Assembly (NCBI RefSeq): GCF_019091085.1
Contig: NZ_JAGXJY010000024.1
Coordinates: forward strand, 1-64,000
Origin: Mesorhizobium sp. GbtcB19
GTDB taxonomy: Bacteria > Pseudomonadota > Alphaproteobacteria > Rhizobiales > Rhizobiaceae
Direction: 5' to 3'
Length of the DNA: 64,000 nucleotides
A program made the translations under genes and the position numbers. The notes under the pieces were generated by a model, which worked only from the letters and a program-made list of their open reading frames with translations, was not told where the DNA came from and ran no database searches. Shown here one piece after another: positions 27,237 through 41,320 of the stretch (its first letter is position 1; each line of letters opens with the position of its first letter).

Positions 27237-29906
27237 TCACTCCGCCGCCTGCACGTGACGGGCGTCGATGATCGCCCGGATCTCGGAGCGGCAGGAGCCG
27301 CAATTGGTGCCCGCGCGCAGTGTCGAGCCGATCGCTTCGAGGCTGTCGCATCCCGAAGCGACCGCTGACGCGAGCTGGTTGGCGCCGATGTGGAAGCATG
27401 CGCACACGACGCGGCCGATGGCCGGCATCGGCACGGGCGAGCGCCCGGACAGAAGCGCGTGGCGATCGGCCGTCGACAGCTTCTGGCGTGTGGCAAGCAG
27501 CGACACCAGCCAGTCCCGCACCGGCAGCTGATCCGGGGCGGCAACCAGCAGCGCCTCAGCCATGGCGCCGGCGTCGTCGATGGCTGCGGCACGATAGGCA
27601 AGCCCGCGGCGATCGGTGTATTCGAGCAACTGGTCCCGCCGCTGGACGGCGAGCAGCTTGCGCGCCAGGAGAATGCCCTGGTCCGGCGGCTCGGTTCCGG
27701 TCAGATCGTAAACCCAGCCGCCCTCGACCGCATGCCGGCTCCAGTGGACGAAACCCGTCGGCCTGAGATCGCGGCGGGTGACGAGCACGCCTGCCCAGCC
27801 CGTGTTTTCGCGCACGATCCTGACCGGAACATGCTTGAGCTCCGGCTGACCGGAATACGGATCGGTGACCGGCGATGACAACAGGCCGGCGGAAGCCTTG
27901 GCCGCGAACTGGCCACTCCAATGCATGGGCAGGAAAGCCTGGCCGCGCCGCTGCGCCTCGGCCACGCGCACCCTGGCGCGGACGAAACCGAAGCGGGTCG
28001 AAAGATGGGCGAGGTCCCCCTCCTTGAGGTGGTGCGCTGCCGCATCGGCCGGATGGAGATCGACCGTCGGCTCCGGCGCGTTCGCCATCAGGCGCGGCAC
28101 GTTGCCGGTGCGCGTCATGGTGTGCCACTGGTCGCGCAGCCGGCCAGTGTTCAAGGCGAGCGGATAGTCGGCGTCGACGGCGAAGGCCGTAGCCTCCTGC
28201 CGCACCGGCACGAAACGCGCGCGGCCGTCGGACGTGGGGAAGCGGCCGTCGGCGAACAATCTTGTCGGCTGCTCGCGGCGGCCCGAAGCGGGCCAACGGC
28301 GTGGCGCGAAGGCACCGTAGTCCGTGTCGCTGAGGTCTGCCAGTCCGCCAAGGTCGAACAGCCGCTCGCCATTGTTCTCGAAGGCGGAAAGCGCGGCATG
28401 CTCGCGGAAGATCTCGGCCGGTGACTGGTAGGCGAAGGCACCGCGGTAACCCATGCGCGCGGCGACCTCGCAGATGATGCGCCAGTCGGCTCTCGCTCCG
28501 CCCGGCGAGGGCAGGAATGACCGCTGGCGCGAGAGGCGCCGCTCAGAATTGGTGACCGTGCCGTCCTTCTCGCCCCAGCCGGCGGCCGGCAGCAGCACGT
28601 CGGCATAGCGCGTAGTGTCGGTGCGGGTCACATCCGAGACGACGACGAACTCGCATTTGGACAAAGCAGCCCGCACCCGCGCTGCATCCGGCATGCTGAC
28701 GGCGGGATTGGTGCCCATCACCCACAGCGCCTTGATGCGGTCGTCGGCGACCGCCTGGAACATATCCACGGCCTTCAGGCCGGCACGCCGCGCGATGTTG
28801 GGCGCGCTCCAGAAGCGGGACACGCGATCGATGGCGGACGGATCCGCGAAGTCCATATGCGCGGCAAGCTGGTTGGCCAGCCCTCCCACCTCGCGCCCGC
28901 CCATGGCGTTCGGCTGGCCGGTCACCGAGAACGGCCCCATGCCGGGCTTGCCGATGCGGCCGGTGGCGAGGTGGCAGTTGATGATGGCGTTGACCTTGTC
29001 GGTACCATGCGCGGACTGGTTGACGCCCTGGCTGTAGACGGTGACCGTACGCTCGATCTCGGCGAAGAGATCGTAGAATGCCTGAACATCGGCGGCCGCC
29101 AATCCGCAGCCTTTCGCGACGCGCGCGATCGACGGTGCATCGGCGCCAGCGAGCGAGGCTGCGGCCTCGAAGTCCGAGGTGCTGTCCCGGATGAAGGCTG
29201 CATCGACCTTCCCCGCTTGCGCGAGATGCGCGAGCAGCCCGTTGAACAACAGCACATCCGTGCCCGGATCGAGCGCCAGATGCAGGTCGCATTCGTCGGC
29301 CGTGGCGGTACGGCGCGGATCGATGACGACGATTTTCGTCCCACGCTCCCGGCGTGCCGCGAGCATGCGCTGGTAGAGCACGGGATGGCACCATGCGGTG
29401 TTGGAGCCGGTGAGCACGATGAGATCGGCGTGCTCGAAATCCTCATAGACGCCCGGGACGATGTCCTCGCCGAAGGCGCGGCGATGGCCGGCGACGGACG
29501 ACGCCATGCAGAGCCGCGAATTGGTGTCGATATTGGCCGAGCCGACAAAACCCTTCATCAGCTTGTTGGCGACGTAGTAATCCTCGGTGAGCAATTGGCC
29601 CGAAACGTAGAAAGCGACCGAGTCGGGCCCGTGCTCGGCAATCGCGCGCGAGAATTTTTCGGCCACGAGATCGAGCGCGTCGTCCCAATCGGCTTGCTTG
29701 CCAAGAACCTCCGGCTGGAGCAGCCGACCTTCAAGGCCAAGCGTCTCGCCAAGCGCAGCGCCTTTCGAACACAGCCGGCCGAAATTGGCCGGATGATCGG
29801 GATCGCCGCGGACGGTTGTCGTGCCGTCCGCGGCGACCTTGGCCAGCACGCCGCAGCCCACCCCGCAATAGGGGCAGGTGGTCCTCACCTCGCGCGCTTC
29901 CTCCAT
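27237..29906 (-). CDS. nasA: Assimilatory nitrate reductase catalytic subunit
   Basis: An 889-aa cytoplasmic molybdopterin enzyme reducing nitrate to nitrite for assimilation. N-terminus: [4Fe-4S] motif CPYCGVGCGV plus the fourth Cys in LCSKGAAL. The central region matches bis-MGD oxidoreductases (MGTNPAVSMPDA near 400), followed by a molydopterin dinucleotide-binding domain. C-terminus: a BFD-like [2Fe-2S] domain (VVCACFHIGANQ and NCGSCRSEI), typical of NasA rather than periplasmic Nap. No Tat signal. It is the last gene of the nitrate operon, 3 bp after nirD. Expression is set by the leader at 34246-34415. Confidence 0.96.
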   Translation of the reverse strand: MEEAREVRTTCPYCGVGCGVLAKVAADGTTTVRGDPDHPANFGRLCSKGAALGETLGLEGRLLQPEVLGKQADWDDALDLVAEKFSRAIAEHGPDSVAFYVSGQLLTEDYYVANKLMKGFVGSANIDTNSRLCMASSVAGHRRAFGEDIVPGVYEDFEHADLIVLTGSNTAWCHPVLYQRMLAARRERGTKIVVIDPRRTATADECDLHLALDPGTDVLLFNGLLAHLAQAGKVDAAFIRDSTSDFEAAASLAGADAPSIARVAKGCGLAAADVQAFYDLFAEIERTVTVYSQGVNQSAHGTDKVNAIINCHLATGRIGKPGMGPFSVTGQPNAMGGREVGGLANQLAAHMDFADPSAIDRVSRFWSAPNIARRAGLKAVDMFQAVADDRIKALWVMGTNPAVSMPDAARVRAALSKCEFVVVSDVTRTDTTRYADVLLPAAGWGEKDGTVTNSERRLSRQRSFLPSPGGARADWRIICEVAARMGYRGAFAYQSPAEIFREHAALSAFENNGERLFDLGGLADLSDTDYGAFAPRRWPASGRREQPTRLFADGRFPTSDGRARFVPVRQEATAFAVDADYPLALNTGRLRDQWHTMTRTGNVPRLMANAPEPTVDLHPADAAAHHLKEGDLAHLSTRFGFVRARVRVAEAQRRGQAFLPMHWSGQFAAKASAGLLSSPVTDPYSGQPELKHVPVRIVRENTGWAGVLVTRRDLRPTGFVHWSRHAVEGGWVYDLTGTEPPDQGILLARKLLAVQRRDQLLEYTDRRGLAYRAAAIDDAGAMAEALLVAAPDQLPVRDWLVSLLATRQKLSTADRHALLSGRSPVPMPAIGRVVCACFHIGANQLASAVASGCDSLEAIGSTLRAGTNCGSCRSEIRAIIDARHVQAAE

Positions 29907-29909
29907 GCC

Positions 29910-30239
29910 TCAGGCCGCTTTCGAAGCCAGCGCTTCGAGCGCGATGAACAGCCGTTCGCCGTCGACCCTGACCGGGATCGTCCTGACCGCGCCTTCATCC
30001 GCGCCGAGCGCCTTCCCCGTCTCCAGCGAGATCACCCAATTGTGCAGCGGGCAGGTCACCGCCACGCCATGCACGATGCCTTGGCTGAGCGGTCCGCCCT
30101 TGTGCGGGCAGTGATCCTCGATGGCAAAGACCTGGTCGTCCGCCGTTCGGAAGACCGCGATCTTGCCTTGCGGGGTTTCAACGCAGCGCGCGCCACGGCG
30201 TGGGATGTCGGCGATGGCGCCGATGGCGATCCAGTTCAT
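29910..30239 (-). CDS. nirD: Nitrite reductase [NAD(P)H] small subunit
   Basis: A 109-aa Rieske-fold protein that accompanies NirB in reducing nitrite to ammonium. It keeps both Rieske ligand pairs, CPHKGG and CPLHNW, so it probably carries a [2Fe-2S] cluster; enteric NirD lacks these residues. Start: ATG 30239 after AGGAAAGAG; an upstream ATG at 30263 would overlap nirB. It lies between nirB and nasA. Confidence 0.95.
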   Translation of the reverse strand: MNWIAIGAIADIPRRGARCVETPQGKIAVFRTADDQVFAIEDHCPHKGGPLSQGIVHGVAVTCPLHNWVISLETGKALGADEGAVRTIPVRVDGERLFIALEALASKAA

Positions 30240-30259
30240 GCCGTCTCTTTCCTGTCGAT

Positions 30260-32710
30260 TCACTCCGCCGCCTCCGCGAACCCGACCGATGCCATCGGCC
30301 GGAACTCATGCTTGTCCTTGCCGGAGACGCGCTCCGACCACGGATCGACCTGGGCGAATTTCTGGCTGAAGACGAAGCGCTCGTAATAGGCTTTGCGCTT
30401 GCTCGTATCGTCCAGGATCTGCCGTTTGATCTCGGCGGTGCCGATGCGCTTGGCCCATTTATAGATGCGCTCGAGGTAGCGGGCCTGCTCGCGATACATC
30501 TGCACGAGCGCCACGATCACCTCGAGCGCCTCGTCCTCGGTCTTCACCAGGCCGAGCACTTCCGTGCCCTTGATGTCGAGGCCGGCCGCACCCGCGAAAT
30601 GGATCTCGTAGCCAGAGTCGACGCACACCACGCCGACATCCTTGCAGGTCGCTTCCGCGCAATTGCGCGGGCATCCCGACACCGCCATCTTCACCTTGGC
30701 CGGCGTCCAGGAACCCCACATGAACTTCTCGATGCGGATGCCGAGCCCGGTCGAATCCTGCGTGCCGAAGCGGCACCAGTCGGTGCCGACGCAGGTCTTC
30801 ACTGTGCGCAGGCCCTTGGCATAGGCATGGCCGGAGACGAAGCCGGCCTTGCCGAGATCGGCCCACACCGCCGGCAGATCTTCCTTGCGGATGCCCAGCA
30901 TGTCGATGCGCTGGCCGCCGGTGACTTTGACCATCGGGATTTCGAACTTGTCGACCACATCGGCGATGGCGCGCAATTCGCCGGCGCTGGTCACCCCGCC
31001 CCACATGCGCGGCACCACCGAATAGGTGCCGTCCTTCTGGATGTTGGCGTGCACGCGCTCGTTGATGAAACGCGACTGATAGTCGTCGGCATATTGATCC
31101 GGCCAGTCGCAGACGAGGTAGTAATTGAGCGCCGGCCGGCACTTGGCGCAGCCGCAGGAAGTCTTCCATTCGAGCTCCTGCATGATGGCGGGGATCGTCT
31201 TCAGGCCCTTCGCCTTGATCAGGCGCCGCACATCGTCATGGCCGAGGCTCGTACAACCGCACATCGGCTGCACCGCCGCCGGATTGTAGGCTTCGCCTAG
31301 CTTGAGCTTCAGCAGCTGTTCGACGAGGCCGGTGCACGAGCCGCACGAGGCCGAGGCCTTGGTGTGGGCGCGCACGTCGTCCAGGCCGGTCAGCCCCTTG
31401 CCGGTGATCGCGCCTGTGATCTTGCCCTTGCAGACGCCGTTGCAGCCGCAGATTTCCGCATCATCCGCCAGTGCCGCAACGGCCGCCAAAGGGTCCGAGG
31501 AAACGCCTCCCTGAAACGCCTGGCCGAAGATCAGCGTGTCGCGCATCTCCGAGATGTCGGTCGCCTTCTTCTTGAGGTCGTTGAACCAGGCGCCGTCGGC
31601 CGTCTCGCCGAACAGCACCGTGCCGATGATGCGGTTGTCCTGCAGCACGACGCGCTTGTAGATGCCGGCGGACGCGTCGCGCAGGATGATCTCCTCGCGA
31701 TCCTCGCCGTCGGCGAAGTCTCCCAGCGAATAGAGGTCGATGCCGGTGACCTTGAGCTTGGTCGGCGTGTCGGAGTGAACGAAGCGCCTGTCCTCGCCGT
31801 CCGCCAGCCTGGCCGCCGCGATGCGCGCCATCTCGTAGAGCGGGGCGACCAGTCCGTAGACATGGCCGCCGACCTCAGCGCATTCGCCAAGCGCCATGAT
31901 CGCCGGATCGGACGTTCGCATACGATCGTCGACGACGATGCCGCGATTGACTTCGAGCCCGGCCTCCTTGGCCAATGTTATGCTGGGGCGGATGCCGACC
32001 GCCATCACTACCAGCGTCGCCGGGATGATCGTGCCGTCCATGAGCTCAACCCCCTCGACCTTGCCATTGCCGAAAATGGCCTTGGTGTTGGCCTTGGTCA
32101 TGATCTTGATGCCGCGCGCCTCGACCGCCTTCTGCAGCAGATAGCCGGCGGCCGGATCGAGCTGGCGCTCCATCAGCGTCGGCATGACGTGCAGCACCGT
32201 GACGTCCATGCCGCGCTCCTTCAACCCGGCTGCGGCTTCGAGCCCGAGCAGGCCGCCGCCGATGACCACCGCCTTGGCGCGCGACTGCGCCGCAAGCAGC
32301 ATGGCGTTGACGTCGTCGAGATCGCGATAGGTCAGCACGCCCGGCAGGTCCTTGCCGGGCACCGGAATGATGAAGGGCACAGAGCCGGTGGCGATGACGA
32401 GACTGTCATAGCTCTCGGTCACGCCGTGGTCCGAAGTGACGGTCTTGGCCTCTCTGTCGATGGCGACGATCCGGTGCCCCTTGTAGAGGGTGATGCCGTG
32501 CTTGATGTACCAGCCGTCGCCATGGATGACGATCTCCTCGAACGCCTTCTCGCCCGACAGCACCGGCGACAGCATGATGCGGTCGTAGTTCACGCGCGGC
32601 TCGGCGTTGAAGATGATCACGGCGTAGCGGTCGGGCGCTGCCTCCAGCAGGTGCTCCAGCATCCTGCCCGGCGCCATGCCATTGCCGATGATGACGAGTT
32701 TTTCGGTCAT
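30260..32710 (-). CDS. nirB: Nitrite reductase [NAD(P)H] large subunit
   Basis: An 816-aa cytoplasmic enzyme reducing nitrite to ammonium with six electrons from NAD(P)H. Domains in order: FAD/NAD-binding pyridine-nucleotide disulphide oxidoreductase (1-about 400; GNGMAPGRMLEHLLEA, VIGGGLLGLEAA), BFD-like [2Fe-2S] (CGCNGVCKGK, CGSCTGLV), a second BFD-like segment (MCGCTSLGH, SCGCAKCRPAL), and the sirohaem/[4Fe-4S] sulfite/nitrite reductase domain (TCVGTDWCRFG; SGCPRNCAEATCKD). All ligand cysteines are visible. Operon neighbours are narK upstream and nirD and nasA downstream. Confidence 0.97.
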   Translation of the reverse strand: MTEKLVIIGNGMAPGRMLEHLLEAAPDRYAVIIFNAEPRVNYDRIMLSPVLSGEKAFEEIVIHGDGWYIKHGITLYKGHRIVAIDREAKTVTSDHGVTESYDSLVIATGSVPFIIPVPGKDLPGVLTYRDLDDVNAMLLAAQSRAKAVVIGGGLLGLEAAAGLKERGMDVTVLHVMPTLMERQLDPAAGYLLQKAVEARGIKIMTKANTKAIFGNGKVEGVELMDGTIIPATLVVMAVGIRPSITLAKEAGLEVNRGIVVDDRMRTSDPAIMALGECAEVGGHVYGLVAPLYEMARIAAARLADGEDRRFVHSDTPTKLKVTGIDLYSLGDFADGEDREEIILRDASAGIYKRVVLQDNRIIGTVLFGETADGAWFNDLKKKATDISEMRDTLIFGQAFQGGVSSDPLAAVAALADDAEICGCNGVCKGKITGAITGKGLTGLDDVRAHTKASASCGSCTGLVEQLLKLKLGEAYNPAAVQPMCGCTSLGHDDVRRLIKAKGLKTIPAIMQELEWKTSCGCAKCRPALNYYLVCDWPDQYADDYQSRFINERVHANIQKDGTYSVVPRMWGGVTSAGELRAIADVVDKFEIPMVKVTGGQRIDMLGIRKEDLPAVWADLGKAGFVSGHAYAKGLRTVKTCVGTDWCRFGTQDSTGLGIRIEKFMWGSWTPAKVKMAVSGCPRNCAEATCKDVGVVCVDSGYEIHFAGAAGLDIKGTEVLGLVKTEDEALEVIVALVQMYREQARYLERIYKWAKRIGTAEIKRQILDDTSKRKAYYERFVFSQKFAQVDPWSERVSGKDKHEFRPMASVGFAEAAE

Positions 32711-32723
32711 GTCGGTCTCCGGT

Positions 32724-34025
32724 CTATTCGGCGGCGTAGGAAAGCGGCGCGGTCTTGACCTCGGCCGCGCGCTCCATCCGGCGGATGGTGATATGCATCC
32801 AGACCAGGCACGAGACGACGATCACGAAGAGCAGCATGAAGCAGCTCGACCAGACGCCGGTAAGGTCGTTCAGCGCGCCGAAGGCGATCGGCAGGATGAA
32901 GCCGCCGAGGCCGCCGATCATGCCGACGACACCGCCGACCGCGCCGACGCTCTGCGGGTAATAGGCCGGGATGTGCTTGTAGACGGCAGCCTTGCCGAGG
33001 CTCATGAAGAAGCCGAGCACGGAGGCGACGGCGATGAAGGCGAGCGGGCCGATCTCGAAATGGAAGGGGATCGGCCCGCTGATGCCGCGCACGACATAAT
33101 CTGCCGAGGGGAGAGACAGAACGAGCGTGGCGACGGCAGAGACACTGAAGGTCCAGTAGAGCACGGTTCGGGCGCCGATGCGGTCGGAAAGCACGCCGCC
33201 ATAGGCGCGGAATATGCTGGCGGGGATCGAATAGGCGGCGCCGATCATGCCGGCGGTGGCGATGCCGAAACCGTAGACGCCGATCAGATAGCGCGGCAGC
33301 CACAGCGACAGCGCCACGAACGCGCCGAAGGCGAAGAAATAGTAGAAGGCGAAGCGCCAGACCTGCAGGTTCTTCAGCGGCGCGAATTCCTGCCAGAAGC
33401 TTCTCGCCGGCGTCGCCTTGCCGGCGCGGCGCTCGCGGATGACCGGATCGTCGCCGGTGGTGAACCAGAAAATGGCAGCCATGACGGCCAAGGCCGCCGC
33501 CCAGATCAGCGCCACCGACTGCCAGCCCCAGGCAAGCAGCACGAGCGGCGCCAGGAACTTGGTGACCGCAGCGCCGACATTGCCGACGCCGAAGATGCCG
33601 AGCGCCGTGCCCTGTTTGTCGGCCGGGAAGAACCGCGAGACATAGGCGACGCCGACGGCGAAGGAGCCGCCGGCGAGCCCGACGCCGAGTGCTGCGACCA
33701 GCATCTGTCCATAGGTGTGCGCGAAGGCGAGCAGGAAGGTCGCGACCGCCGCCGCGAGCATCGTCATCGTATAGACCAGCCGGCCGCCATAGCGGTCGGT
33801 CCAGACACCGAGCACCATGCGCACGAGCGAACCGGTCAGGATCGGCGTGCCGACCAGCAGGCCGAACTCGGTCTCGTTCAGGCCGAGCTCCTGCTTGATG
33901 CGCACGCCGATGATGGAAAAGATCGTCCACACCGCGAAGCAGACGGTGAAGGCGATGGTGGACATGACGAGCGCCTGCCGGGGAGCACTGTCCTGGCTGG
34001 GCGCGGCTGCGAGATTTGCGGTCAT
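32724..34025 (-). CDS. narK: Nitrate/nitrite transporter, MFS (NarK family)
   Basis: A 433-aa major facilitator protein with 12 predicted membrane segments, of the NarK/NasA nitrate-nitrite porter type. Signature-like stretches include FAVWTIFSIIGVRIKQELGL in helix 1 and GLAGGSFAVGVAYVSRFFP and GNVGAAVTKF in the glycine-rich helices. It supplies nitrate to NasA; no nitrate ABC transporter genes are in the operon. Start: ATG 34025. It sits 53 bp after a 55-aa membrane-peptide gene, the first gene behind the regulated leader. Confidence 0.95.
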   Translation of the reverse strand: MTANLAAAPSQDSAPRQALVMSTIAFTVCFAVWTIFSIIGVRIKQELGLNETEFGLLVGTPILTGSLVRMVLGVWTDRYGGRLVYTMTMLAAAVATFLLAFAHTYGQMLVAALGVGLAGGSFAVGVAYVSRFFPADKQGTALGIFGVGNVGAAVTKFLAPLVLLAWGWQSVALIWAAALAVMAAIFWFTTGDDPVIRERRAGKATPARSFWQEFAPLKNLQVWRFAFYYFFAFGAFVALSLWLPRYLIGVYGFGIATAGMIGAAYSIPASIFRAYGGVLSDRIGARTVLYWTFSVSAVATLVLSLPSADYVVRGISGPIPFHFEIGPLAFIAVASVLGFFMSLGKAAVYKHIPAYYPQSVGAVGGVVGMIGGLGGFILPIAFGALNDLTGVWSSCFMLLFVIVVSCLVWMHITIRRMERAAEVKTAPLSYAAE

Positions 34026-34077: not shown

Positions 34078-34245
34078 TCAGCGCGGCGGCACCTGGGCGG
34101 TCACTTGCGGACCCGTGCTTTCGGCTTCGTGGCTGGCGGGAAACAGTAGAAGTGCCGCGGCGAACAGCACCGCCGTCAGAAGGCTGCTCGCCAGGAAATC
34201 GCGGCGGGTGAAATCCTTAAGCGAAGGTCCGATCCGTTTGGTCAT
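34078..34245 (-). CDS. 55-aa single-span membrane peptide in the nitrate operon leader
   Basis: A short ORF directly after the leader terminator (start ATG 34245, behind CGGAGACG) and 53 bp before narK. It reads MTKRIGPSLKDFTRRDFLAS at the N-terminus, then a hydrophobic segment of about 16 residues (SLLTAVLFAAALLLFP) and a polar tail ending QVTAQVPPR. TRRDFLAS resembles a Tat signal motif, but only about 20 residues follow the hydrophobic part, so it is either a tiny membrane protein or a remnant of a longer exported protein. It was too short for usual gene finding; position and ribosome site make translation likely. Confidence 0.55.
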   Translation of the reverse strand: MTKRIGPSLKDFTRRDFLASSLLTAVLFAAALLLFPASHEAESTGPQVTAQVPPR

Positions 34246-34266: not shown

Positions 34267-34337
34267 AAAAAAGCTGCCGTCCAGGCCCTCTCGCGTCCGT
34301 ACATCCGGGATCGCGTGGTGACCTGAGCGGCAGCTTT
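34267..34337 (-). terminator. Leader terminator of the nitrate operon (attenuator)
   Basis: On the minus strand the arms AAAGCTGCCG (34337-34328) and CGGCAGCTTT (34279-34270) pair over 10 bp, with extra inner CAGG/CCTG pairing, and are followed directly by a run of six T. The roughly 48-nt loop is long. The 5' arm overlaps the ANTAR-type hairpin P2, so the two structures exclude each other. It lies 22 nt before the first ORF of the operon. Confidence 0.8.
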
Positions 34338-34363
34338 GCCTGTGGCGCCCGCCATTGGACGCC
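34329..34363 (-). promoter_or_regulatory. ANTAR-type tandem hairpin RNA (NasT target)
   Basis: On the minus strand, P1 (34363-34344) has a 7-bp stem GGCGTCC/GGGCGCC closing the hexaloop AATGGC. After a 3-nt linker, P2 (34340-34329) has GGC/GCC closing the hexaloop AAAGCT. Both loops carry A at position 1 and G at position 4, the hallmark of RNA bound by ANTAR antiterminators. P2's loop and 3' arm form the 5' arm of the terminator. The partner NasT is encoded just upstream. Confidence 0.75.
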
Positions 34364-34399
34364 TGTTCTGTTGCCCGCGAACGGGCTCGATTATTTCAA

Positions 34400-34566: not shown

Positions 34567-35793
34567 TCAGGCATTCTTCTGGCCGGCAATATAGGCGTCG
34601 ATCCGGTCGGGATCGAAAATCTGGCCGTCGAAGAATCCGTCAGGGCCAAGCACGAGGCTCGCCCCGGCGGAACCAACCGGCGTCGCGACCTTCAGCGCCC
34701 CCTCGACCTTGGCATTGGCGCCCGGCAGCGCCACGCCGAGCGGCTTCAGCGCCGAGCGATAAAGGTCGGGCCGATAGCAGTCGCGGGCGATGGCGAGGTT
34801 TTGCGGCGTATGCGGCAACTGCCCCCAGCGCACCATCTGCGTGTAGAACCACAGCGCATGGCTCTTCCAGGGAAAGTTGGCCGCCTTGTCGAAGGGCAAG
34901 AAGAAATCCTCGACGCTCCGCTCCACGCCGCCGCCCAGTTGAAGGCGTCCGGTGAGCGCCGGCATTTGGATCGCCTCCGGCTGACCGAGAAAACCGGGCC
35001 TTGCCATCAGCGCGGCCAGCTCGCCGCGGTTCGCCGGATCCTGGCACCAGCGTGCGGAATGATAGAGCGCCCTCAGCAGCGCCGCCAGCGCATCCGGGTG
35101 CTCCTCCGCCCAGGCCTTGCGGACACCGAGCACCTTTTCCGGGCTGTTGCGCCACAGCAGCGCCTTGACGGTGACGATGCGACCGGTGCCCGCCGCGACC
35201 GAGGCGCTGTTCCACGGCTCGCCGACGCAATAGCCGTCGATGCGGCCGGCGGAGAGCGCATCGGCCATGAAGGGCGGCGGCACGATGACGATCTCGATGT
35301 CGCGATCCGGGTCGATGCCGCAGGCGGCGAGCCAGTAGCGCAGCTCGTAATTGTGCCCCGAATGCGGATGGACGACGGCGAAGCGCAGCGGCTCGCGGCC
35401 GCTGGCCGCCCGCTCGCGCACAAGCGCGCCGAGAGCGGTCCCGGCACGCGCCGGATCGAGGTCGGCCACGGCGCCATGCGCCGCCATGCCGTCCCAGACG
35501 GCGTTGGAGACAGTGATGCAATTGCCGCCGAGCCCGAGCGAAAACGGCACGATGGTGTCGGACGCAAGCGGCGTCAGCCCGAGGCTGCAGGCAAGCGGCA
35601 TCGGCCCCAGCATATGCGCGACATCGAAATGACCGATGGCGATGCGGTCGCGGATGTTGGCCCAGGACGTCTCGCGCTGCAGCTTGAGCTCGATTCCCTC
35701 GCGTGCGGCAAAGCCCATCTCGCCGGCCGCGACCAGCACCGCGCTGTCGAAGAGCGGCATGAAGCCGGCCGTGATTTCGTGCGCCATGCTCAT
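34567..35793 (-). CDS. nasS: Nitrate sensor of the NasST antitermination system
   Basis: A 408-aa protein of the NrtA/CmpA nitrate-binding family but without any signal peptide (starts MSMAHEITAGFMPLFDSAVL), so it stays in the cytoplasm. NasS binds NasT and releases it when nitrate or nitrite binds. Family features include IGHFDVAHMLGPMPLACSLG near residue 55, DGYCVGEPWNSASVA near 190 and FPWKSHALWFYTQMVRWGQ near 305. Start: ATG 35793, behind GGGGGAGGG; it overlaps the nasT stop by ATGA. Together with nasT it forms a two-gene unit upstream of the operon it controls. Confidence 0.93.
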   Translation of the reverse strand: MSMAHEITAGFMPLFDSAVLVAAGEMGFAAREGIELKLQRETSWANIRDRIAIGHFDVAHMLGPMPLACSLGLTPLASDTIVPFSLGLGGNCITVSNAVWDGMAAHGAVADLDPARAGTALGALVRERAASGREPLRFAVVHPHSGHNYELRYWLAACGIDPDRDIEIVIVPPPFMADALSAGRIDGYCVGEPWNSASVAAGTGRIVTVKALLWRNSPEKVLGVRKAWAEEHPDALAALLRALYHSARWCQDPANRGELAALMARPGFLGQPEAIQMPALTGRLQLGGGVERSVEDFFLPFDKAANFPWKSHALWFYTQMVRWGQLPHTPQNLAIARDCYRPDLYRSALKPLGVALPGANAKVEGALKVATPVGSAGASLVLGPDGFFDGQIFDPDRIDAYIAGQKNA

Positions 35794-36386
35794 TCGCCCT
35801 CCCCCAGCAATCCCGCCGCCGTCACCAGGCTCTGGGCGATGTCGGCGATCTTGCGGTTCTGGTTCATGGCGGTCTTGCGCAGAAGCGTGTAAGCCGCCTC
35901 CTCGCTCAAGCCGCGCGACTTCATCAAGATGCCCTTGGCCCGGTCGATGACCTTGCGGTTCTCCAGCTCGCTGCGCGCCTCCTCCAGTTCGCGCGCCATG
36001 CGCGAGAAGGCATTGAAGCGGCTGATCGCCATGTCGAGGATCGGCTTGATGCGCTCCTTCTTCAGCCCGTCGACGACATAGGCGGACACGCCGGCATCGA
36101 CCGCCGCCTCGATCGAAGCCTGGTCGGAACGGTCGACGAACATGGCGATCGGCCGCTTCACCGCGCGCGACAGCTGGAACATGTTCTCCAGCATGTCGCG
36201 ATTGGGATTTTCCAGGTCGATGACGATGACGTCCGGCTCGATCTCGGCGATGCGCCGGGCAATGCCGGCCACGTCGTGGACCACCGTGACATGGCGATGA
36301 CCGGCGTCCCGCAAGCCGGCCTCGATGATCGAGGCGCGGATGCGGTTCTCGTCGATAACAAGGATGGTCAACGAACCGGTGGACAT
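35790..36386 (-). CDS. nasT: ANTAR-domain antiterminator
   Basis: A 198-aa response-regulator-like protein. Residues 10-125 form a receiver-like domain (ILVIDENRIRASIIEAGL; the phosphoacceptor region reads DVIVIDLENP), and residues about 135-190 form the ANTAR RNA-binding domain (IDRAKGILMKSRGLSEEAAY). NasT binds tandem hexaloop hairpins in leader RNA and prevents termination. Start: ATG 36386 (MSTGSLTILV); a longer frame to 36470 is unlikely. It is co-translated with nasS. Its target RNA is identified at 34329-34363. Confidence 0.94.
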   Translation of the reverse strand: MSTGSLTILVIDENRIRASIIEAGLRDAGHRHVTVVHDVAGIARRIAEIEPDVIVIDLENPNRDMLENMFQLSRAVKRPIAMFVDRSDQASIEAAVDAGVSAYVVDGLKKERIKPILDMAISRFNAFSRMARELEEARSELENRKVIDRAKGILMKSRGLSEEAAYTLLRKTAMNQNRKIADIAQSLVTAAGLLGEGE

Positions 36387-36488
36387 GCGCCTATTGTGCA
36401 GGCGGACCGCAATTGTGCAATGCGGTAGTCGATCGGAAGCGAATTCGGCCCGACGTTTCCAAGTCGTCAAGGACCGCCGGCCTCGGCC

Positions 36489-39332: not shown

Positions 39333-40400
39333 TTAAGGCGCACCTGGACCGCCCGGCCCACCGGGGCCGCCAGGCCCGCCCGGTCCGCCATTGGGTGCGC
39401 CACCGGGCACCCCGGGAACTCCGGGAGCACCGTTCGGTGGAGAACCTGGCGGCTGGCCGGGCATGCCGGGTCGGCCCGGCGAGCGCGGACCGGCATCGGC
39501 CTGGCGCGAGGCCGATACGATATTGCCCGACCGGTCGAATCCGACCGCAAGAAACGCGCGCACGGCAGTTGTCGATTGCGAATCGTCGCCTTGGTCGTCA
39601 ACGGAGACCCCCAGACCCGATTCCAGCCGATGTCCCCGACGCCGCAGGAAGGTTTCGTAGAGCACGCTCGTGACATCGGCCTGTGGAACCGGTGCCTCCG
39701 CCTTGATGCTCACCACTTTGTAGCCGCCGGTGGCCTTGACCAAGGTCAGTTCCACGCGGCGGTTCGCAAGCTGCGATGATCTCGGCCCGACATTCAGCCG
39801 CCCCACCTGCAGCGAGCCTGACTTCACCACCGCGAGGCCGCGAACCAGGTAACGTGTCGTGGAAGGCCTGGCCTCTACCAGGCTCGCGACGATTTTCCCG
39901 TCCGGCCGGCGAATGCCTTGGACGGCCACGATATCGCCCTTCCTGATCGGCGGCATCGCCGGAACGCCGCCGGTGTCCACGCTCTGTCCCAGAACCAGGA
40001 TCGAGCCCGGGCTTGCGCGCTCGACAGGCCCGACGACCTCGCTGGTGACATGGATTTGCCGTGTGACGATGCGATCCGCGTCCCGCGTCACCACCACGCG
40101 CACGACCTGTCCTATCTTGATGCTGCTTGCGGTGGCGGCGACGCCGTCTATCCAGACCGGCACATCCGGACCGTAGGCGACCCGCACGTCGTTGACGAAG
40201 ATGCTGCCGAAGCGCTGTATTGTTCCCACGATGCCGGTGCCGCCGATGCCGTGATCGTCCCCCGTTCCGGCCGTCCAGCCGGTGCCGCCGATACCCCGGT
40301 CGCCCGAATTGTCCGTCGCCCTTGCGAAGGCACTGAGCAGCACTGCGGGGAAGGCGGCGCTGAGCGTCAGGAAACTCCGCCTCGTCAACCTCCAGCCCAT
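39333..40400 (-). CDS. Exported DUF5666-like protein with collagen-like tail
   Basis: A 355-aa protein with a Tat-type signal (MGWRLTRRSFLTLSAAFPAV, cleavage near FARA). After a Gly/Thr-rich linker, residues about 55-210 contain repeated small beta-barrel units resembling DUF5666 (GTIQRFGSIFVNDVRVAYG, IKIGQVVRVVVTRDADRI, IRKGDIVAVQGIRRPDGKI). The last 50 residues are Gly/Pro-rich with GGPGGPGGPGGPGGPG and GMPGQPPG triplets like collagen. It is probably periplasmic or surface-exposed. Start: ATG 40400, sharing one base with the stop of the preceding gene (TGATG). Function unknown; always translated together with the DUF6502-like protein here. Confidence 0.8.
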   Translation of the reverse strand: MGWRLTRRSFLTLSAAFPAVLLSAFARATDNSGDRGIGGTGWTAGTGDDHGIGGTGIVGTIQRFGSIFVNDVRVAYGPDVPVWIDGVAATASSIKIGQVVRVVVTRDADRIVTRQIHVTSEVVGPVERASPGSILVLGQSVDTGGVPAMPPIRKGDIVAVQGIRRPDGKIVASLVEARPSTTRYLVRGLAVVKSGSLQVGRLNVGPRSSQLANRRVELTLVKATGGYKVVSIKAEAPVPQADVTSVLYETFLRRRGHRLESGLGVSVDDQGDDSQSTTAVRAFLAVGFDRSGNIVSASRQADAGPRSPGRPGMPGQPPGSPPNGAPGVPGVPGGAPNGGPGGPGGPGGPGGPGAP

Positions 40401-41260
40401 CAAGCGTCTCCGCCGGCAGGCGTGGAAGATTCTTCGCCGGCAAACGATGCGCCGTCGGCGGTGAGGATGTAGACACCGCAATTCCACCGGCTTGTCCCGC
40501 CGGGATCGCTTTTCACCGCCTGGTTCGCATGCTTGTTGAGATGGAGCAGCGTCTCAACCACGACCTTGCGGCTGTAGGCTTCGAGCGACCTGGCAAGCTC
40601 TTCCGAGAGTCCGTCATAGTGGACGGCCCGCTCGATGAAAGGCGGTTTGTCCGCCAGGATGTTCGCGACGGCGGCGGCAGCATGGTCCTGGAGATTGCGG
40701 GCAAAGTAATAGAGCCGGACCTCGCCGTCGTCGCGCGGCGCCATCGCCGCTTCCATCAGGACGATGCGATCCTGTTCATCGGTCTCCACCAGCTTGCGAT
40801 CGAGCCAATCGTCGAGAACCGCCCTCGGCCGCAAATCGCGCGTCACCGACTCCACCAGGCCGGCGAACGACGCCTCTCCGGTCTCGGCCATTCGCGGCAA
40901 GGGCAATGGCGCGCCCTTGGCGTCGGTGAACATCGGATCGGCAAGCCAGCGCGCGACGATCGCGCTCGTCCTTGAAACGGAGTCGGGTATGATCCGGACC
41001 GGAGCGCCGGCGCCGCGCAGACGGCTGACCTCCTTGCGATGGACGCCTGTCAACAGGCTTACCCTGCTGTCCGTCTGCGGCTTTTCGGCCAGCGCGAATT
41101 CATGCTCCGCCACGTTGACGTAGATCTGCCGCAACAGGTCGACGAAGGTGGGAAACGTCACCCCGCACTTGATCGCCAGCCGCACCAACGGGCGAAGCAC
41201 CCGGTTCAACGCGCTCTGGACGCCCGCGGCATCCAGATATTGTTCCGCCGATTTGCTCAT
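40400..41260 (-). CDS. DUF6502-like protein
   Basis: A 286-aa cytoplasmic protein resembling the uncharacterised DUF6502 family. The N-terminal third has a winged-helix look: ALNRVLRPLVRLAIKCGVTF, LLRQIYVNVAEHEF, then SRVSLLTGVHRKEVSRLRG near residue 70, which reads like a helix-turn-helix. The remainder (DDWLDRKLVETDE..., HANQAVKSDPGGTSRWNCGVY) has no catalytic motif I recognise. Start: ATG 41260 after AAGGACGG; a GTG at 41263 is in frame. Palindrome site D lies about 60 bp upstream. It may be a regulator of its own cluster; this is inference. Confidence 0.75.
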   Translation of the reverse strand: MSKSAEQYLDAAGVQSALNRVLRPLVRLAIKCGVTFPTFVDLLRQIYVNVAEHEFALAEKPQTDSRVSLLTGVHRKEVSRLRGAGAPVRIIPDSVSRTSAIVARWLADPMFTDAKGAPLPLPRMAETGEASFAGLVESVTRDLRPRAVLDDWLDRKLVETDEQDRIVLMEAAMAPRDDGEVRLYYFARNLQDHAAAAVANILADKPPFIERAVHYDGLSEELARSLEAYSRKVVVETLLHLNKHANQAVKSDPGGTSRWNCGVYILTADGASFAGEESSTPAGGDA

Positions 41261-41320
41261 CACCGTCCTTCACCCGTCAATCAATTCACCTATGCCCCGA
41301 AAATTCCTGCCGAAAATAGC

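Follow-up and report, generated by a model that had tools for sequence, protein, structure and literature searches.

A short leader RNA in front of the narK-nirB-nirD-nasA operon of Mesorhizobium sp. GbtcB19 is very likely an antitermination switch operated by the ANTAR protein NasT. It lies between the nasT-nasS genes and the operon, within a 64,000-nucleotide stretch of contig NZ_JAGXJY010000024.1 that was analysed as a whole (hereafter the window), and carries two hexaloop hairpins, P1 and P2, the second of which overlaps an intrinsic terminator (Table 1). The initial annotation had read it as a NasT-responsive leader, and this reading is supported by the motif itself, the conservation of its loops, covariation and the nasTS neighbourhood; the mutual exclusivity of P2 and the terminator and a promoter-like site upstream were also observed. 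NasS/NasT-ANTAR antitermination is a kind of regulation already known, of which this leader is a well-supported, ordinary case.

Table 1. Features of the leader region and its neighbourhood in the window.
Feature	Coordinates	Strand	Description
nasT	35790..36470	minus	receiver + ANTAR protein; Pfam PF03861 (78.7 bits), PF00072
nasS	34567..35793	minus	NrtA-like nitrate sensor; Pfam NMT1_2 (257 bits); nasT-nasS order as in a Shinella plasmid
Two NtrC-like sites	34558-34544, 34540-34526	minus	each one mismatch from GCAC-N7-GTGC
Sigma54-type -24/-12 promoter (putative)	34415-34399	minus	TGGCACG-N4-GTGCTT; start predicted near 34389
5' hairpin	34386-34373	minus	GCCCG-UUCG-CGGGC; from fold
P1 hairpin	34363-34344	minus	GGCGUCC-AAUGGC-GGGCGCC; 7 bp including one U.G; loop AAUGGC
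Spacer P1-P2	34343-34341	minus	ACA
P2 hairpin	34340-34329	minus	GGC-AAAGCU-GCC; 3 bp; loop AAAGCU
Intrinsic terminator	34337-34267	minus	5' arm = P2 loop + P2 3' arm; from fold and covariation
Terminator 5' arm	34337-34328	minus	AAAGCTGCCG
Apical motif within terminator hairpin	34310-34296	minus	UCCCGGAUGUACGGA
Terminator 3' arm	34279-34270	minus	CGGCAGCTTT
Terminator T-run	34272-34267	minus	six T
55-aa ORF	34078..34245	minus	between leader and narK
narK	32724..34025	minus	nitrate/nitrite MFS transporter
nirB	30260..32710	minus	
nirD	29910..30263	minus	Rieske_2
nasA	27237..29906	minus	nasA-type assimilatory nitrate reductase

As the initial annotation had stated, nasT and nasS are found directly upstream on the same strand, so that an ANTAR-domain NasT, a receiver-ANTAR protein by Pfam, and an NrtA-like NasS are encoded beside the operon. 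The nasT ORF was listed from a TTG at 36470, and translation probably begins at residue 29, a Met. Lys143 and Met172 of EutV, named in the EutV-RNA structure paper (PMC8934654), correspond to K173 and M202 of NasT when numbered from the TTG, assuming an offset between the chain index and the numbering of the paper. The gene order was identical in an annotated Shinella plasmid, where our covariance model of the leader, R1, matched in the corresponding gap (68.2 bits); R1 also matched a Rhizobium sullae plasmid (74.1 bits) and Nitratireductor indicus (53.9 bits). A second ANTAR gene of the same genome (contig C35:132588-132743; loci L002 and L085) lies near genes that by eye resemble those of a peptide ABC transporter. 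Elsewhere in the window, positions 39333-41263 of the minus strand encode a DUF5666 protein whose tail is rich in Gly and Pro, beside a DUF6502 protein.

A coordinate check on the minus strand confirmed P1, P2, their loops and their 3-nt spacing, together with the overlap of P2 with the 5' arm of a terminator with 10-bp arms and six T, all as initially described. Two properties that had been called unusual did not prove to be so. The 3-bp stem of P2 has the length required of each stem (at least 3 bp) in a published screen for ANTAR RNAs, as described there, in which linkers of 2-25 nt were seen (PMC8164766); the leader has stems of 7 and 3 bp and a linker of 3 nt. The terminator loop of about 48 nt is itself folded, the 48 nt between the 10-bp arms forming a second helix of 7 bp together with an apical hairpin in the minimum-energy fold. 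Both hexaloops, AAUGGC and AAAGCU, have A at position 1 and G at position 4 (A1 and G4), the positions used in the dual-hexaloop rule described for ANTAR targets (PMC3369931), and both are conserved.

The fold of the 191-nt leader region was more stable than that of all 200 dinucleotide shuffles (z -3.8). A descriptor requiring two stems with ANNGNN loops, the first of 5 bp or more and the second of 3 bp or more, a spacer between them and an overlapping terminator found one site in the window and none in 20 shuffled windows, and in 864 kb of loci from the same genus it found 65 sites, every one at the leader position. When the terminator was left out of the descriptor, each shuffled window yielded about one two-hairpin match; the hairpins alone are therefore unremarkable, and it is the terminator overlap that makes the site exceptional. 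Apart from the leader itself, a search of the same genome for further copies at E<=10 gave just one overlapping antisense match and two others, at E 5.5 and E 7.9. An alternative switch, in which the 5' arm of P1 would pair with the apical GGACGC, was set aside, as many relatives keep P1 yet lose the apical stretch.

The leader was present in 53 of 61 genus genomes, a count that includes the genome under study, and the genus alignment comprised 68 rows, that is 67 places with one place counted twice. P1 and P2 hardly vary within the genus, so that no covariation is possible there. For a wider comparison we used R1, built from P1 and the terminator, which had matches in 47 of the 151 family genomes and in 39 of 109 genera. 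Seven of 49 R1 matches represented a different element devoid of P2, and six genomes (five genera) contained only this element, which leaves the nas-type leader in 41 of the 151 genomes and in 34 genera. A second alignment, of 49 leaders from 48 sources, combined 9 leaders of the genus with 40 of other genera; its rows are the 61 model matches minus 5 antisense matches and 7 sources with the P2-less RNA, and P1 and the terminator, but not P2, guided its fitting. That relatives keep the hexaloops, a point on which the initial annotation had staked its reading, was found at both scales: A1 and G4 of both loops were kept in 68/68 genus rows, and among the 49 leaders A1 was kept in 49 and G4 in 48 for loop 1, and A1 in 48 and G4 in 49 for loop 2.

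The 49 leaders also showed the compensatory changes in P1 and the terminator that the initial annotation had proposed to look for, all counts below being of sequences and not of independent events. P1 and P2 together had two-sided changes in 6 of 10 pairs (22 cells; 0 of 500 shuffles as high) and were 97.8% paired, and in controls with slid positions at most one pair had two-sided changes. P1 alone had such changes in 5 of its 7 pairs, and P1 with the terminator in 20 of 28 pairs (139 cells; 0 of 500 shuffles), the alignment having been fitted to these very helices. In P2 every cell was paired, and the outer pair had two-sided changes in 6 sequences; since its two inner pairs never vary, the case for P2 rests on one covarying pair and the loop. 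The last base of P2, which is shared with the terminator, retained a pairing partner in each of the two helices in 49/49 rows, including the 7 rows with changes; the triplets of P2 partner, last base and terminator partner were G/C/G (42), A/U/A (5), G/U/G (1) and U/G/C (1). Judged from the alignment, such dual pairing is the mark expected of mutually exclusive structures. The nearest upstream match was NasS for 45 leaders and an NrtA-type protein for one, with none for three; downstream it was NarK for 19, a NasS- or NrtA-type protein for 28 and NasA for one, with none for one.

Upstream of the leader lies the sequence TGGCACG-N4-GTGCTT, which we take to be a -24/-12 element. Its TGGCA and TGC were invariant in 68/68 genus rows, and TGGC[AG][CT]N7GC occurred at most 70 nt upstream of 40 of the 49 leaders (0.021 expected). 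GCAC-N7-GTGC is an NtrC-like site; with up to one mismatch it was found within 255 nt of 66 of 67 genus leaders (background 17.7%), and without mismatch, over the same distance, of 26 of 67 (background 1.7%). General nitrogen control combined with nitrate-specific antitermination has been described for Klebsiella and Paracoccus (PMC5424462).

Taken together with published work on NasS/NasT, NasR and EutV, these elements suggest how the switch may operate. When nitrogen is short, NtrC and sigma54 would start transcription, as the conserved sites indicate. When nitrate is missing, NasS would hold NasT, the nascent RNA would form the terminator and transcription would stop about 120 nt after its start. 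Nitrate or nitrite would release NasT, and free NasT would bind the hexaloops of P1 and P2 and hold P2 folded; because the folded P2 contains the 5' arm of the terminator, the latter could not form, and RNA polymerase would read into the operon. Release of NasT from NasS by nitrate or nitrite and binding of NasT to the nasA leader are described for Paracoccus (PMC3795266), and leader hairpin mutants have been published for the NasS/NasT system (PMC5424462).

The nasA leader of Paracoccus denitrificans and the nosR and nirA leaders of Bradyrhizobium diazoefficiens are described as likewise having nasTS upstream, two hairpins and antitermination released by nitrate (PMC3795266, PMC5424462, PMC6759348). 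Compared by such descriptions, the leader of the window differs in its operon, narK-nirB-nirD-nasA, in the 55-aa ORF that separates it from narK and in the conserved apical hairpin of its terminator. Klebsiella NasR/nasF and Enterococcus EutV/eutP likewise have two A1/G4 hexaloops, the second overlapping a terminator (PMC3369931, PMC8934654); compared with their descriptions, the sensor here differs in being a separate protein, NasS. The S. meliloti gene names looked for in PMC3616915 were not found there.

Several observations count against the NasT switch, the invariance of two of the three P2 pairs among them. In Bradyrhizobium, a nasT mutation is reported to increase and not to decrease expression of the narK operon under denitrification, despite a predicted leader hairpin, and a clear hairpin is absent from most down-regulated genes in the same work (PMC6759348). 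The nas-type leader is limited to the 41 family genomes, and the Sinorhizobium americanum stretch that was searched had no R1 match.

Two other explanations of the leader as a whole were considered. A strong terminator sited between two gene blocks could simply end the transcription of nasTS and shield narK from it, the hexaloops being incidental. We consider this highly improbable, as A1 and G4 are nearly invariant while neighbouring loop bases vary, P1 covaries although it lies outside the terminator, P2 and the terminator change together, and a promoter-like site stands upstream of the terminator. Even less probable is a riboswitch or another ligand-binding leader, an idea to which a structured and conserved leader ahead of a transporter operon lends itself; conservation falls on the bases of ANTAR hexaloops, NasS is the nearest upstream match of nearly all leaders, and the window had no match to any Rfam family at gathering score. 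Weak Rfam matches (microRNA, lncRNA, ar35 and others) seem to reflect chance or the symmetry of hairpins, apart from that to RF03032, the 'narK RNA'.

Scoring 17.4-17.5 bits where the gathering score is 43.2, the leader is not a member of the RF03032 model. The two nevertheless appear to work alike. The 3' end of the model consists of P1 (loop AACGGC) followed by ACGACAAAGACGUCGC, a P2-like hairpin, and Rfam pairs P1 and not P2. Among 398 genomes of the phylum, 21 had RF03032 matches with E no higher than 0.001, and 16 of these genomes exceeded the cut-off. Every one of the 21 carries an ANTAR gene, compared with 155 of the 398 overall (hypergeometric 1e-9 on the assumption of independent genomes, which does not hold, as a single family supplies 16 of the 21). 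By printed coordinates the match lies within about 1.8 kb of the ANTAR gene in 19 of the 21; the exceptions are genome G425, where it is far, and G409, where it is about 7 kb away and a second, unlisted ANTAR gene is present. In 28 of the 30 loci read (L086-L115, out of 36 matches), RF03032 starts with T and then GG-N10-GC, which is like a sigma54-type promoter. Its unpaired 3' end can fold as CGAC-AAAGAC-GUCG, the loop having A1 in 28 and G4 in all 30 loci. After merging of identical rows into 19 distinct sequences, 90.8% of P2 cells pair (10/500 shuffles as high), with two-sided changes in 4 cells (4/500) and 2 pairs (41/500), which is modest support. RF03032 is thus best read, from its sequences, as the sigma54 promoter and dual hexaloop (P1 and an unannotated P2) of NasT-type leaders. 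Neither RF03032 nor 'narK RNA' appeared among the matches listed in the literature searched, a search that did not extend to the original description of the family.

The apical hairpin of the terminator has a distribution of its own. Its motif TCCCGGATGNACGGA was found at 32 sites in 31 of the 151 family genomes and at none in a reversed control. By context, 14 of these sites are nas leaders (including the two in G530 and G470), 8 are RNAs adjoining mrp, 3 are similar sigma54-linked RNAs elsewhere and 7 look like chance or coding sequence. Among the nas leaders, CCCGGATGNACGG is carried by 16 and absent from 33 of the 49, and the apical motif is thus not needed for NasT control.

The RNAs beside mrp (apbC) are sigma54-linked, related to the nas leader and mostly preceded by LuxR-type genes; their P1 is degenerate, and P2 was looked for in them and not found. 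Seven of the eight (not L194) share with the nas leaders L143 and L145 a 5' hairpin, GUCCAGAGGGGAC (mrp-linked loci L144, L151, L152, L161, L163, L166 and L167; named loci L225, L228, L243 and L268); the score of 'mrp' in L144 is at the cut-off of the ApbC model. In Neorhizobium galegae, Xaviernesmea oryzae, Metarhizobium album and Rhizobium oryzicola this hairpin is flanked by a LuxR-type gene on one side and mrp on the other. A contig search with the 5' hairpin lacked stringency: it gave at least 118 stretches, most of the matches listed being chance by title, and filtering for a sigma54-like site or a rhizobial title left at least 10 stretches. Seven loci with the P2-less RNA had no Rfam match at E 0.01.

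One candidate role for the P2-less RNA is that of a NasT decoy: an ANTAR gene was present in 11/11 genomes that have it (10 at E <1e-18, one at 6.7e-12), but A1 and P2 are missing from it. A further, rather doubtful possibility is that the nas leader itself doubles as a nitrogen-stress RNA, beside and independently of NasT antitermination. When nitrogen is limiting and nitrate absent, the terminated RNA, about 120 nt long, would accumulate, and its apical hairpin UCCCGGAUGUACGGA, with a covarying stem, would act in trans on other RNAs or on a protein, the same module being kept in the P2-less paralogue of other genera. This would fit the recurrence of UCCCGGAUGNACGGA in the mrp-side RNAs, where its flanking stem covaries in the 8 members (outer pair G-C 3, C-G 2, A-U 1, U-A 1, U-G 1), as well as the 5' hairpin common to these RNAs and two nas leaders. 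It is weakened by the two thirds or so of nas leaders without the motif and by the sites that look like chance or coding sequence; CsrA, considered as a reader of GGAUGU, was discarded, its gene being absent from 13/13 genomes checked.

The leader is duplicated in 14 of the 53 genus loci (L033-L084), with copies about 0.8-3.6 kb apart. In the duplicated loci read, the first copy precedes an NrtA-type protein (NMT1-like) of about 440 aa and the second precedes narK. The ORF between the latter and narK encodes 54-65 aa in the genus, 55 in the window, and matched nothing in Pfam and NCBIfam; its start resembles the signal peptide of the NrtA-type protein (MTKRIGTG..LKDFTRRDFLASSALTA). The median dN/dS of 33 intact genus copies was 0.40 (one duplicate removed), and mean pN was 0.11 against a pS of 0.35 in the N-terminal and membrane part, compared with 0.33 and 0.43 in the tail. 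Two copies are frameshifted (L065, L067), and in three loci (L079, L081, L084) narK directly follows the leader and the small ORF is absent. From these comparisons the ORF looks like a retained NrtA-type signal peptide, and the simplest history that we can infer is that promoter, leader and signal-peptide start were duplicated between nrtA and narK and the peptide was then retained.

These results extend NasT antitermination to a narK-nirBD-nasA operon of this family, where sequence comparison speaks for the P2/terminator switch. They also suggest an identity for the orphan family RF03032, whose model appears to span the promoter and to miss the P2 pairing. The conserved hairpin common to the nas leader and another sigma54-linked RNA and the signal-peptide-like small ORF kept before narK are testable oddities; if the doubtful second role were true, an ANTAR leader would have been converted into a free-standing nitrogen-stress RNA.
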